This document shows positions 15,544 to 64,000 of a stretch of 64,000 nucleotides of DNA, in pieces. A model generated the notes under the pieces. It worked only from the letters and a program-made list of their open reading frames with translations, made no database searches and was not told the origin of the DNA. Source of the DNA: a virus; IMG/VR virus record IMGVR_UViG_3300027499_000005, positions 83,375-147,374 of that record. One strand, 5' to 3'. Within the stretch, counting starts at the first letter, position 1. The number at the start of each line of letters is the position of its first letter. The position numbers and the translations under genes were made by a program.

Positions 15544-15573
15544 AGAAGAAAAAGACTTTATTCTTATACGACA

Positions 15574-58274: not shown

Positions 58275-58303
58275 TGGACGCTCGGCCCCTCATACGATAT
58301 ATT
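58275..58303 (+). promoter_or_regulatory. candidate early promoter before dCMP deaminase
   Basis: TGGACG (58275-58280) and TATATT (58298-58303) are 17 bases apart; a TTGACA lies further upstream at 58260-58265. Another -10, TATAAA, is at 58303-58308. Both -10 candidates fall in the loop of the hairpin at 58286-58319. Confidence 0.5.
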
Positions 58304-58319
58304 ATAAACGTATGAGGGG
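58286..58319 (+). promoter_or_regulatory. hairpin over deaminase RBS with promoter in loop
   Basis: CCCCTCATACG (58286-58296) is perfectly complementary to CGTATGAGGGG (58309-58319); the 12-base loop is ATATATTATAAA. The right arm contains GAGGGG, the ribosome binding site of the ATG at 58323. RNA from upstream would be folded shut; RNA started at the loop promoter would not. Confidence 0.7.
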
Positions 58320-59820: not shown

Positions 59821-61242
59821 ATGTTGGAACAGAAGCCGGTCAACTTTGCACAGTACGGCAAGTCTTTCCAAGAAGACCTATGTAGTCTAATCCTCGATGA
59901 TCGACCTTTCGCAGATCAACTACTGGAAGTATTTGACCCAAACTTCTTGGAACTCAAGTATCTTCGTGTGTTTGTCGAGAAGATTGTCGAACATCGAAAG
60001 AACTACAAGATTCATCCTAGTCGCAAGACTATGGTTACAATCATCAAATCAGGTCTGAATGACGAGAATGATGCAACAAAGCGACAAGTCGTTGATTTCG
60101 TCGCTCGGGTTTTCGCTAGAGAAGAAGTAGAAGAGTCCGGCTTTATCAAGGATACTTCTCTAGACTTTTGCCGTAAGCAAAAGCTAAAAGAAGTCATGAT
60201 CAAGTCGGCAAAGCTAATCAACACAGCTTCGTTCGATGAAATCACCAAGTTGATCACAGATGCTGTAAAGCTTGGTTCTTCGAATGACTTTGGCTATGAT
60301 TACCTAAAGGATTTCGAACGTCGGTTCGAACTAAAGGCCCGAGATCCAATCCCAACTACTTGGAACGAGATTGACCAAATCACGGGCGGCGGTATTGGTA
60401 ACGGAGAGCTAGGAGTTGTAATCGCCCCTACGGGTGCCGGTAAATCAATGGTGTTGGTGCATTTGGGAGCGCAAGCGGTCAAGCAAGGCAAGACAGTAGT
60501 TCACTACACCCTAGAGCTATCAGACACCGTTATCGCGCAAAGGTACGATAGCTGTATTACCGAGCTTCCACTAAGCGAGTTGATGAACCACAAAGAAATC
60601 ATTCGTGAATCGGTCGAGCAAGTCCCCGGCGCACTAATTATCAAAGAATACCCCACCAAAACGGCTAGCGTAAATACTTTGCAATCACACCTTGAAAGGT
60701 TGCGTGCAAAGGGAACAAAAGTGGACATGGTGGTGGTTGACTATGGCGACTTGCTAAAGCCGGTCACTAGAGACAAGGAAAAGAGGAACGAGTTAGAATC
60801 AATCTACGAGGGACTAAGAGGACTAGCACAACAGTTCCAATGCCCTATTTGGACTGCTTCACAGACCAATCGGTCTGGCTTGAATGCCGAAGTAATCACA
60901 ATGGAATCAATCTCAGAAGCTTTTTCGAAATGCTTTGTTGCTGATTTCATCTTTACAGTATCAAGAACGATTGAAGACAAGCAGAACAATACAGGCAGGA
61001 TCTTTGTTGCTAAGAATCGGTTTGGACCGGATGGTATCGTATTCCCTATTGACATGAGTACTAGGAATGTGAGTATCAAGATGAAGGTACCAAATACAAA
61101 TCAAGATCCCTTGTCGCTGGGTCAAACAACAAACTTGACAGCTAAAGATCAAGCTCAACGCCTCAAAGACAAGTACAAGAAGTTTAGACAATCTATTAGA
61201 GCAAACATAACGGAGAATACAGAAAATGAATCTAGCAACTAG
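59821..61242 (+). CDS. replicative DNA helicase (DnaB/gp41-like)
   Basis: The 473-residue protein is a RecA-fold hexameric helicase. Walker A is APTGAGKS (202-209), followed by VHYTLELSD, Walker B-type VDMVVVDYGDLL and the sensor strand PIWTASQTNRSG. The N-terminal 150 residues are helical, as in DnaB. It unwinds DNA ahead of the polymerase and cooperates with the primase at 19324. It lacks an intein, unlike some relatives. The ATG follows AAAGAGG. Confidence 0.9.
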   Translation: MLEQKPVNFAQYGKSFQEDLCSLILDDRPFADQLLEVFDPNFLELKYLRVFVEKIVEHRKNYKIHPSRKTMVTIIKSGLNDENDATKRQVVDFVARVFAREEVEESGFIKDTSLDFCRKQKLKEVMIKSAKLINTASFDEITKLITDAVKLGSSNDFGYDYLKDFERRFELKARDPIPTTWNEIDQITGGGIGNGELGVVIAPTGAGKSMVLVHLGAQAVKQGKTVVHYTLELSDTVIAQRYDSCITELPLSELMNHKEIIRESVEQVPGALIIKEYPTKTASVNTLQSHLERLRAKGTKVDMVVVDYGDLLKPVTRDKEKRNELESIYEGLRGLAQQFQCPIWTASQTNRSGLNAEVITMESISEAFSKCFVADFIFTVSRTIEDKQNNTGRIFVAKNRFGPDGIVFPIDMSTRNVSIKMKVPNTNQDPLSLGQTTNLTAKDQAQRLKDKYKKFRQSIRANITENTENESSN

Positions 61243-62467
61243 GATTTTGTCGGACATTACAGTCCATATGAAATACGCAAGGTATCTACCAGAAGAATAC
61301 CGCCGTGAATCTTATGAGGAAATCACGGAACGCAATCTTGAAATGCACATCAAGAAGTACCCACATCTTGAATCAGAGATAAGGGAAGCATACAAGTATG
61401 TTTTCAGTCGTCAAGTATTGCCTTCGATGCGTTCAATGCAGTTTGGTGGCAAGCCAATCGAGATTGCCCCAAACCGAATCTTCAACTGTGCATTTATGCC
61501 TATTGATGATCTACGTTCTTTCTCGGAAGCAATGTTCTTGCTTCTTGGCGGAACCGGCGTAGGCTTCTCGGTTCAGAAGCATCACGTTGAGAAACTACCA
61601 GAGATTCGGATTCCATCCGGTCGCGAAAAGCGATTCCTTGTTGGAGATTCGATTGAAGGTTGGGCCGATGCTGTTCGCGTGCTTCTACAATCTTACTTCA
61701 GGGGAACAAGTCGTATTCGCTTTGACTTCTCGGACATTCGCCCCAAGGGTGCCCGTTTGGTTACATCAGGCGGTAAAGCACCGGGACCACAACCTCTCGT
61801 TGAGTGTTTGGTGAAGATTGACGGAATGCTGAACACAAAGAAGGACGGCGATAAGCTAACTCCTATTGAATGCCACGACATTATGTGTCACATCGCAGAT
61901 GCCGTGCTTGCTGGTGGTATTCGCCGCGCTGCTTTGATTTCGCTATTCTCTGCTGACGACGACGAAATGATTGCTTGTAAGGCAGGAAACTGGTGGGAAA
62001 CAAACCCACAACGCGGTCGTGCTAACAACTCTGCCGTTCTTCTTCGCCACAAGGTTGAGAAAGAATACTTTATGGATCTTTGGACCCGCATTCGTGAAAG
62101 TGGTTCAGGAGAACCCGGTATTTACCTAAATAACGATAAAGATTGGGGAACAAACCCTTGTTGCGTTGACGGAGACACCCTCATTACAACAAACGTTGGT
62201 CAAATGACTATGCGTGAGTTGGTTGAAAGGGTTGAGAGTGGCGAATCGATCAGCGTGCTTTCTTACGATGAAGCAACTTGTAGTCTTGAACTACAACCAG
62301 TAGAAGAAGCAGCCATGACGAGAGAAGACGCTGATGTTATCAGGATCGAAACAGAAAGCGGCCAAGTCCTCATTCTAACTCCCGACCATAGAGTATTCAC
62401 AGAGAATAGGGGATATGTTGAAGCAGCACACTTGACAGAAGAAGATATACTACTTTCTATTGAATGA
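61226..62467 (+). CDS. nrdJ: class II ribonucleotide reductase N-part fused to N-intein
   Basis: The 413-residue protein has two parts. Residues 1-312 are the N-extein of an adenosylcobalamin-type ribonucleotide reductase (NCAFMPIDDL, LLLGGTGVGFSVQ, GGIRRAALISL, ending in WGTNPC with the catalytic-motif Cys). Residues 313-413 are a split N-intein starting at Cys313 (block A CVDGDTLI) and with block B TPDHRVFT. The stop codon follows directly, so the full enzyme exists only after protein trans-splicing with the product starting at 63303. The gene overlaps the helicase by 17 bases. The mature enzyme would make deoxyribonucleotides without oxygen. Confidence 0.9.
   Translation: MNLATRILSDITVHMKYARYLPEEYRRESYEEITERNLEMHIKKYPHLESEIREAYKYVFSRQVLPSMRSMQFGGKPIEIAPNRIFNCAFMPIDDLRSFSEAMFLLLGGTGVGFSVQKHHVEKLPEIRIPSGREKRFLVGDSIEGWADAVRVLLQSYFRGTSRIRFDFSDIRPKGARLVTSGGKAPGPQPLVECLVKIDGMLNTKKDGDKLTPIECHDIMCHIADAVLAGGIRRAALISLFSADDDEMIACKAGNWWETNPQRGRANNSAVLLRHKVEKEYFMDLWTRIRESGSGEPGIYLNNDKDWGTNPCCVDGDTLITTNVGQMTMRELVERVESGESISVLSYDEATCSLELQPVEEAAMTREDADVIRIETESGQVLILTPDHRVFTENRGYVEAAHLTEEDILLSIE
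62162..62464 (+). other. split intein, N-terminal half (101 residues)
   Basis: It begins at Cys codon 62162 directly after the TGT codon of the reductase NPC motif. Block A starts with CVDGDTLI, block B with TPDHRVF (Thr and His of the TxxH motif), and it ends GYVEAAHLTEEDILLSIE. The layout closely resembles the known NrdJ-type split inteins. Confidence 0.9.
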
Positions 62468-62472
62468 GTATC

Positions 62473-62522
62473 TTTGCGGGCTCCAATAAACTATTTATAA
62501 TGTAGGGGTTGGAGCCCGCAAA
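62473..62522 (+). promoter_or_regulatory. 14-bp inverted repeat over endonuclease RBS, promoter in loop
   Basis: TTTGCGGGCTCCAA (62473-62486) is perfectly complementary to TTGGAGCCCGCAAA (62509-62522). The 22-base loop contains CTATTTATA (62491-62499). The right arm contains the TTGGAG ribosome binding site of ATG 62524. Read-through RNA from the reductase gene would hide this site; RNA begun at the loop promoter would expose it. Confidence 0.8.
62491..62499 (+). promoter_or_regulatory. late promoter motif CTATTTATA in hairpin loop
   Basis: This copy is identical to those at 15574 and 23990 and lies 33 bases before the endonuclease ATG. It is the only late motif found inside a large inverted repeat. 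Confidence 0.6.
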
Positions 62523-62523
62523 C

Positions 62524-63348
62524 ATGAAAATAGAAGAAGCGATAAGAACAATATATCTCAACCACGAAAAAGGAAAAGTCGTACTTATACCAGAAGACTT
62601 CGCAGAAGAGTACAAAATATACGCTTCTAATAGAGTCGCTGAACTTGGCAATACCGCCCGCGCAAGCAACAAAAGAAGTTTTATTATCAACAATATTAGT
62701 AGGATATATCCAAGCGAATATTGTTTTGCTAAAAGTTTTATATCTTCTCTTTATAGTGAAGGGTATGGTTTGAAAACAATAGGCAAAAAGATAGACTTGA
62801 CACCAACGAGAGTAAGAACTCTTTTTTCAATACTTGGTATAGAGATAAATAAAGGCAAAAATATAGTATATAACAAAACAAAAGAAATAAGAAGTGAAAA
62901 CCTGAAGTCGTTGTATAACAATAGAGCAGGTTGGTTTAAGACCTTTCATAGAAAGACTAATAAGACCTCGCGAGGCATTCAGGGATACTACTTCAACAGA
63001 ACAAGAAATAAGTTTGTTTGGCTTCGTAGCACATATGAATATATATATGCCAAGTGGCTTGACTCTCATGCGATAGAATGGGATGTAGAACAGCAAACTT
63101 TCCAACTTGAGAAAACAACGTATAGACCAGACTTTTTTATCTACGAAGAAGGAACTTTGATGAAAATAGTTGAAATCAAAGGGTTTTGGGATAGAGGGAT
63201 AGTAAAAACAGAAGAACTATCAAAAAGACTGGATATAGAAATAGTCCTAATAAGAGATATAGGACCATATATAACCACCACCTATAATAAGGAGATATTA
63301 GAATGGAAACGACTACGAATATTACAAGAACCAAGATCAAGCGTATAA
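62524..63348 (+). CDS. PD-(D/E)XK-type homing endonuclease between intein halves
   Basis: From ATG 62524 the product has 274 residues. The N-terminal half is helical and probably DNA-binding (YGLKTIGKKIDLTPTRVRTL looks like a helix-turn-helix). The C-terminal half has RSTYEYIYAKWLD, YRPDFFIYEEG and IVEIKGFWDRG, a nuclease pattern E...PD...E-x-K. It would cut intein-free reductase genes and promote spread of the intein. It is more AT-rich than the flanking reductase exons and uses many ATA codons, as expected of a mobile gene. It overlaps the C-intein gene by 46 bases. An upstream TTG (62509) lies in the hairpin arm and is unlikely. Confidence 0.75.
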   Translation: MKIEEAIRTIYLNHEKGKVVLIPEDFAEEYKIYASNRVAELGNTARASNKRSFIINNISRIYPSEYCFAKSFISSLYSEGYGLKTIGKKIDLTPTRVRTLFSILGIEINKGKNIVYNKTKEIRSENLKSLYNNRAGWFKTFHRKTNKTSRGIQGYYFNRTRNKFVWLRSTYEYIYAKWLDSHAIEWDVEQQTFQLEKTTYRPDFFIYEEGTLMKIVEIKGFWDRGIVKTEELSKRLDIEIVLIRDIGPYITTTYNKEILEWKRLRILQEPRSSV

Positions 63349-63431
63349 CTATTGAAAAGAATAGAGACGTTTATGACATTCAAGTAAAAAAGAACCATAA
63401 CTTTTTTGCTAATGAGTTGTTGGTTCACAAC
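63303..63431 (+). other. split intein, C-terminal half (43 residues)
   Basis: It carries block F (VYDIQVKKNHNFFANE) and block G (LLVHN) with the final Asn at 63429-63431; the +1 nucleophile is Cys (TGC 63432-63434). It has its own start codon and ribosome binding site, so the halves are made as separate chains. Confidence 0.9.
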
Positions 63432-64000
63432 TGCGAAATTGCTCTTCGCCCTTACCAGTTCTGTAACCTAACAGAAGTGAACGTAAGCGATGTGGAAAGT
63501 CAGGAAGACTACGAAGCAAGAGTCCGCGCAGCAGCGTTTATTGGCACTCTACAAGCATCTTACACAGACTTCCACTATCTCCGTCCAGTTTGGCAGAGAA
63601 CAACCGAGAAGGACGCTCTAATCGGTGTTGGAATGACTGGTATTGCTTCTGGAAAGGTTCTTGATCTTGATATGGTAAGAGCAGCACAAGTTGTAAAAGA
63701 AGAAAATGCCCGCGCTGCGGCTCTTTTGGGAATCAATCCAGCAGCAAGAACAACTTGCGTCAAGCCTTCAGGTACAACTTCACTTGTTCTTGGAACTTCT
63801 TCGGGCATTCACGCTTGGCACAACGATACTTACATTCGTCGTATCCGTGTCGGCAAGAATGAAGCAATCTACACCTACCTCGTAGAGAACCACCCAGAAC
63901 TAATCGAGGACGAATACTTCCGCCCACACGACACCGCTGTTATTTCGGTACCACAAAAGGCACCAGAAGGTTCAATCGTTCGTACAGAGTCTGCTATTGA
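63303..64000 (+). CDS. nrdJ: C-intein plus ribonucleotide reductase C-part (runs off window)
   Basis: The frame opens at ATG 63303 behind AAGGAG (63289-63294) and continues to the window end (232 codons visible). Residues 1-43 are the C-intein: VYDIQVKKNHNFFAN, then LLVHN with the terminal Asn43. The C-extein starts at Cys44 (CEIALRPYQFCNLTEVN) and contains GVGMTGIAS, TTCVKPSGTTSLVLGTSSGIH and YIRRIRVGKNE, all typical of class II reductases. After trans-splicing the junction would read NPC-CEIAL, which restores the NPCxE active-site loop. The start lies inside the end of the endonuclease gene. Confidence 0.9.
   Translation, partial: METTTNITRTKIKRITIEKNRDVYDIQVKKNHNFFANELLVHNCEIALRPYQFCNLTEVNVSDVESQEDYEARVRAAAFIGTLQASYTDFHYLRPVWQRTTEKDALIGVGMTGIASGKVLDLDMVRAAQVVKEENARAAALLGINPAARTTCVKPSGTTSLVLGTSSGIHAWHNDTYIRRIRVGKNEAIYTYLVENHPELIEDEYFRPHDTAVISVPQKAPEGSIVRTESAI

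Follow-up and report, generated by a model that had tools for sequence, protein, structure and literature searches.

How does a phage obtain a working ribonucleotide reductase from a gene that is broken within its active-site codons by the gene of a nuclease, and how did the nuclease come to lie there? The question is raised by a stretch of viral DNA of 64,000 nucleotides (hereafter the window; positions 83,375 to 147,374 of IMG/VR record IMGVR_UViG_3300027499_000005), which ends in three genes arranged head to tail: nrdJ N-half, a free-standing endonuclease gene, and nrdJ C-half. Fractured genes of this sort are the source of some of the fastest split inteins in biotechnology, and both the spread of fractured-gene cassettes and the way in which phages tolerate a reductase gene interrupted by that of a nuclease have been largely inferred. 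We propose that the locus is a mobile fractured-gene cassette, with a trans-spliced NrdJ, a homing endonuclease, and hairpin/late-promoter control of that endonuclease, and we consider this mechanism as a whole highly probable. The N-half encodes the N-terminal part of an adenosylcobalamin-dependent (class II) ribonucleotide reductase joined to an N-intein, and the cassette is laid out as follows.

61226–62467, + strand: nrdJ N-half gene, 413 amino acids, TGA stop at 62465–62467; matches TIGR02505 (3.2e-41), TIGR01445, and phrog_367 (3.7e-68)
61226–62161, + strand: N-extein, 312 amino acids, C-terminal end GTNPC
62162–62464, + strand: N-intein, 101 amino acids; Cys1 codon 62162–62164 (residue 313), block A CVDGDTLITT, block B LTPDHRVFT
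62524–63348, + strand: free-standing endonuclease gene, 274 amino acids, with its own start and Shine-Dalgarno (SD) sequence; helical N-terminal part and predicted PD-(D/E)XK-type nuclease
63289–63294, + strand: SD sequence AAGGAG of the C-half gene, within the endonuclease coding sequence (Lys-Glu codons)
63303–64000, + strand: nrdJ C-half gene, C-intein and C-extein, cut off by the contig end
63303–63431, + strand: C-intein, 43 amino acids, blocks F and G, His-Asn43; Asn43 codon 63429–63431
From 63432, + strand: C-extein, Cys+1 codon 63432–63434

An original prediction, made from the letters of the window, had described a fractured class II reductase with a split intein and an endonuclease gene in the break. 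All three genes are indeed present, as are the stop codon of the N-half and the AAGGAG of the C-half. The predicted gene order stands, but the C-half does not follow the endonuclease gene: it starts inside it, with a 46-nt overlap, and such an overlapping start recurs in 36 of the 39 unique fractured loci. The locus had also been called complete, which it is not. The last base of the window is also the last of the 147,374-base virus contig, which leaves 232 of the 348 amino acids of the C-half visible; two identical contigs, L004 and L015, supply the full 348-residue sequence with its C-terminal cysteine pair. That prediction did not cover this truncation, nor the leader with its hairpin and late-promoter-type motif, the homing footprint, and the PD-(D/E)XK-like nuclease described below.

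Since a stop codon does interrupt nrdJ, the stop and the inserted reading frame might simply inactivate a decaying pseudogene, or might be an artefact of assembly. The stop context is identical in nine fetched contigs with different sample numbers; these independent contigs exclude an assembly error, a doubt that the original prediction had itself raised. Homologous fractured loci occur in dozens of contigs, and the reductase has kept its catalytic residues both before and after the break, so that decay or artefact is extremely improbable. Specifically, Cys312 of the N-extein aligns to Cys408 of the Lactobacillus leichmannii enzyme RTPR (1L1L), whose E410, C419, and C-terminal Cys pair are also matched. 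The roles of these residues are well established, Cys408 being the thiyl-radical cysteine of class II reductases. By this alignment, nrdJ is interrupted directly after the codon of the thiyl-radical cysteine, in the part that encodes the active-site loop. The reductase is nearest to that of Microcystis phage Mel-JY01 (65% identity), and the host of the window phage may therefore be a cyanobacterium; no near match of 24 kb of the window to any named phage record was found.

The inserted sequence has the features of a split intein. Blocks A, B, F, and G and residues Cys1, Asn43, and Cys+1 were all located as predicted, and both halves score above the curated NCBIfam cut-offs, the N-intein with TIGR01445 (52.4 bits, cut-off 24.5) and the C-intein with TIGR01443 (34.8 bits, cut-off 15.6). 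The Pfam family Intein_splicing is covered at positions 7–93 by one half and at 116–155 by the other, with a score just below the cut-off. The suggested homology to NrdJ split inteins is borne out by the best solved match, NrdJ-1 (PDB 8ubs), with E-values of 6.9e-16 for the N half and 1.2e-4 for the C half. One contig fetched with the endonuclease profile (L153) carries a fractured nrdJ in which both intein halves match NrdJ-1 and the endonuclease is of the same family as in the window; beside the 8ubs match, we take its intein letters to be those of NrdJ-1. The arrangement had been assigned to the known fractured NrdJ type, and the shared architecture and endonuclease family agree. Judged by these matches, the window intein is a relative of NrdJ-1 and a new member of that known kind, not a new class. 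The Ser+1 of NrdJ-1 is not found in the window, which has Cys+1, a residue shared with further members of this locus family; we treat this as a subtype difference, hence "relative of NrdJ-1" and not "NrdJ-1".

The uninterrupted gene of a related phage (L024) encodes an intact enzyme of 617 amino acids, exactly the sum of the N-extein and C-extein (312 + 305). Together with the motifs and the homology, this makes trans-splicing the expected route to the full 617-residue enzyme. The halves might instead assemble non-covalently into a working reductase, as in the genes-in-pieces arrangement created by mobE in nrdA of phage Aeh1, a phage reductase precedent (PMC3653736). Here, both intein halves keep all splice residues intact across relatives, and without splicing an intein tail would remain on each side of the radical cysteine, so assembly of this kind is very unlikely and trans-splicing is the reading we follow.

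Two other forms of the locus deserve mention. Many relatives (L122–L166, the NP|C class) are split one codon earlier, placing Cys1 after Pro, and Cys+1 would then be none other than the radical cysteine. As Pro at position -1 is reported to be bad for NrdJ-1 splicing (PMC13123727), splicing of the NP|C class is a question. In two further contigs (L081, around 1884–2790, and L085), a 906-bp insertion at the same reductase site matches both the N- and C-intein in one open reading frame, and a contiguous intein thus appears to exist at this site.

How the cassette reached the site can be read from its alleles. The phage with the uninterrupted gene is 98% identical to the window phage, and its exteins differ from the window allele at 44 of 1851 bases. 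Conversely, contigs of another phage type (L007, L005, L009, and L010) carry the cassette. Between the window allele (L004) and L007, the exteins differ at 326 of 1851 bases (17.6%) and the 1,270-bp cassette at 3 of 1270, a disparity with a Fisher p of about 1e-74. The shared tract extends beyond the intein by at most 3 nt on the 5′ side and by about 77–81 nt on the 3′ side. Of the 44 extein differences between L004 and L024, 12 lie no more than 81 nt 3′ of the site, and the window allele matches L007 at nine of these 12; from C-extein position 78 on, it matches L024 and not L007 (152 sites). The site is empty in 74 of the 80 closest nrdJ relatives retrieved and occupied in four, two of them by the 906-bp insertion. 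A near-identical cassette between diverged exteins, with a 3′ tract, indicates that the cassette recently homed between viruses, with a co-conversion tract like that described with homing for T4 introns (PMC2988022); the transfer is seen in the alleles and cutting is inferred. The same pattern suggests a break on the C-extein side.

The endonuclease itself bears on whether a cut was involved. An alignment of 39 distinct sequences shows E172, D203, and the E217-x-K219 motif to be invariant, and an AlphaFold model built from it has a mean predicted local distance difference test (pLDDT) score of 88.6. The top Foldseek matches are mostly PD-(D/E)XK proteins (BstEII, Bax1, XisH, and TnsA) at modest E-values of 1e-3 to 4e-2; for Bax1, XisH, and TnsA, the probabilities of 0.96–0.99 come with E-values of only 4e-3 to 4e-2. 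The model thus places the E, D, E-x-K set expected of the PD-(D/E)XK class on a predicted restriction-like core, and this is the likely fold class. A first model from seven sequences gave no clear fold match, the deeper alignment yielding the better one. A phmmer search of the endonuclease against the PDB returned chance-level matches only, and no relatives were found in named phage records or in genome contigs; one weak plasmid match was obtained. We considered whether the C-terminal W-K motif is kept mainly to supply the C-half start and rejected this, as W261-K262 is invariant also where that start lies elsewhere. Three fractured nrdJ loci (L025, L171, and L172) encode a related nuclease core with a long C-terminal extension and little or no overlap with the C-half, and one endonuclease sequence, probably that of L025, matches NUMOD3.

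Two points weigh against homing: ordinary homologous recombination could transfer the cassette without a cut, and L024 is a single contig from which alone gain and loss of the cassette are not polarised. In the corresponding alternative, the halves trans-splice, the nuclease is dead or uninvolved, and the cassette was moved by recombination, which is common between related phages. That the nuclease is a mere passenger is unlikely, given the invariant catalytic set, the retention of one nuclease family at this reductase site among distantly related phages, and an identity tract that begins and ends at the intein edges, save about 80 bp on one side. These sharp boundaries argue for homing over ordinary recombination.

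Three elements that may govern synthesis of the endonuclease lie in its leader, which runs from the stop codon of the N-half to the ATG of the endonuclease gene.

62473–62522, + strand: hairpin with perfect 14-bp arms (62473–62486 and 62509–62522), -30.5 kcal/mol, z -5.56
62489–62501, + strand: late-promoter-type motif AACTATTTATAAT in the hairpin loop, containing TATAAT (62496–62501)
62502–62510, - strand: operator-like sequence AACCCCTAC, resembling the homing-site core AACCCTTGT, 8/9 to AAYCCNTGY

The stem is the longest perfect one in the window (loop up to 45 nt), and its 3′ arm contains the endonuclease SD (GGAG, 62511–62514). The computed probability that this SD is unpaired is 0.0 on read-through RNA and 0.63–0.70 on RNA starting at 62503–62508. 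The motif ACTA[CT]TTA occurs 16 times on the + strand of the window and never on the - strand; 11 of the 16 copies lie within 60 bases upstream of the 50 start codons, where 0.75 would be expected. This strand bias and upstream enrichment indicate that ACTA[CT]TTA is probably a late promoter element of the window phage. Its copies stand mostly before structural genes (for example at 15573, 31997, 33773, 39584, and 44252) and do not have the T4 form TATAAATA. We discounted a copy of TATAAATA found on the loop's minus strand, since both the ACTAYTTA motif and the main genes of the window are on the plus strand. By computation, the leader thus shows the arrangement that characterises late control of the I-TevI type: on read-through RNA a hairpin masks the SD, and it encloses a probable late promoter. 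A second case of promoter-in-hairpin control may lie at 58286–58319 of the window, where a perfect 11-bp hairpin (CCCCTCATACG, loop ATATATTATAAA) stops 3 nt short of the start codon (ATG, 58323) of a deaminase-like gene, whose GAGGGG is paired within it.

The same features recur across relatives. The leaders of 37 endonuclease genes, which are not independent samples and so limit these statistics, fold more stably than 97 control junctions (mean -19.7 versus -14.5 kcal/mol, p 6e-6), and 24 of them contain the late-type motif, with 3.1 expected. Weighing against a role in control, 40 of the 97 control junctions reach folding energies of -15 kcal/mol or lower as well, and the late-promoter assignment is statistical, the late sigma factor of the window phage not having been sought. 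The hairpin could accordingly be only a terminator, an mRNA-stability element, or a chance fold of the kind that control junctions also form, with the nuclease translated along with the operon. We think this improbable, though it deserves more weight than the alternatives considered above: no T-run follows the hairpin; its arm contains the SD; the pairing is kept in L012 and L119 with different arm letters; and late-type motifs are in excess in the leaders. We therefore continue with the hairpin as a masking element.

The operator-like sequence adds a possible layer of self-control. The pattern AAYCCNTGY, which corresponds to the Asn-Pro-Cys codons at the insertion site, is present in 20 of the 37 leaders (0.29 expected), the L110-type leader having an exact match, and in none of 127 control leaders. 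With A allowed at position 8 (AAYCCNTRY), it is found in 31 of 37 leaders, the window included, and in 18 of 20 endonuclease clusters, compared with a shuffle mean of 1.15 and 1 of 127 controls. Several points count against reading it as an operator. The G/A choice at position 8 was made after data inspection; the sequence overlaps the SD region, and its conservation may partly reflect SD or hairpin constraint; and alignment of the window leader to its own homing site alone is not significant (p 0.67), and only the degenerate core pattern, counted over all leaders, reaches significance. I-TevI represses itself by binding an operator that resembles its homing site and overlies its late promoter (PMC2988022), which makes putative I-TevI-like self-repression a reasonable guess here. 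Tentatively, and with slightly less than even confidence, we suggest that the cassettes in fractured reductase genes belong to a single mobile family of wide distribution. Its PD-(D/E)XK endonuclease would recognise both the Asn-Pro-Cys codons of the reductase active site and its own copy of them at the hairpin-embedded late promoter, shutting itself off through an I-TevI-like circuit built, within split inteins, from an unrelated nuclease.

In the mechanism we propose, the N-half and C-half would be translated separately, the C-half by way of the AAGGAG that precedes it within the endonuclease gene, and the intein halves would associate and splice Cys312 to Cys+1 to give the 617-residue NrdJ. 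On read-through nrdJ mRNA, the hairpin would hide the endonuclease ribosome site. Later, the promoter in the loop would yield mRNA without the 5′ arm, allowing the endonuclease to be made, a step suggested by the structure, the motif, and the T4 I-TevI precedent. The endonuclease would then cut nrdJ alleles that lack the intein, close to the Asn-Pro-Cys codons, and the 1,270-bp cassette would be copied in during repair with some 3′ flank; less certainly, the endonuclease may bind the homing-site-like sequence at its promoter and repress itself. Early translation of I-TevI harms intron splicing (PMC3014915). By analogy, a hairpin that keeps ribosomes off the endonuclease gene early might leave the C-half start clear of oncoming ribosomes when the reductase is needed.

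The layout of the locus is already known; the informative additions are the homing footprint with its empty allele and the conserved leader combining hairpin, late-promoter-type motif, and operator-like sequence. The locus combines matched alleles with and without the cassette, a recent transfer that left a co-conversion tract, and a control region that can be read, which makes the homing and timing of a split-intein cassette directly testable. It further points to a large, uncharacterised family of homing endonucleases that target a very conserved stretch of active-site codons.

Known systems share parts of this design. In T4 I-TevI, gene e, and mobE, a hairpin covers the SD and a late promoter gives unmasked mRNA (PMC3014915, PMC2988022); the window is alike in its hairpin over the SD, the late-promoter-type motif within, and the homing-site-like sequence at the promoter. 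I-TevI, however, is a GIY-YIG enzyme in an intron and T4 uses TATAAATA, whereas the window nuclease, whose control is inferred here, belongs to another family, lies in a split intein, and is preceded by ACTAYTTA. With I-Bth0305I and the Vsr-like homing endonucleases, the window nuclease has a predicted restriction-endonuclease-like core in common. No sequence match to I-Bth0305I (3r3p) was found and the Foldseek match is weak (rank 26, E 0.94, target template modelling score 0.51); the window nuclease has an E...D...ExK set, and Bax1, XisH, and TnsA are better structural matches. At the split PolB intein of Pseudomonas phage MIJ3, the two halves of a phage replication gene likewise flank a free-standing gene for a homing endonuclease (PMC6892783), but there the endonuclease is of the HNH type and the host gene is DNA polymerase B.

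The closest system is the fractured nrdJ of NrdJ-1, which is alike in host enzyme class, in the insertion point after the TNPC cysteine, in the split between blocks B and F, and in the free-standing endonuclease between the halves. The 2009 abstract of Dassa et al. is said to report control elements arriving with the endonuclease in some fractured loci, and a Vsr-related endonuclease family. NrdJ-1 has Ser+1 (PMC13123727), whereas the window intein has Cys+1 and is divergent. The ocean metagenome cases of Dassa et al. comprise two nrdJ and seven nrdA loci (as given in PMC3653736). To NrdJ-1 and these loci, the window adds an allele with an empty site and the footprint of a recent transfer.

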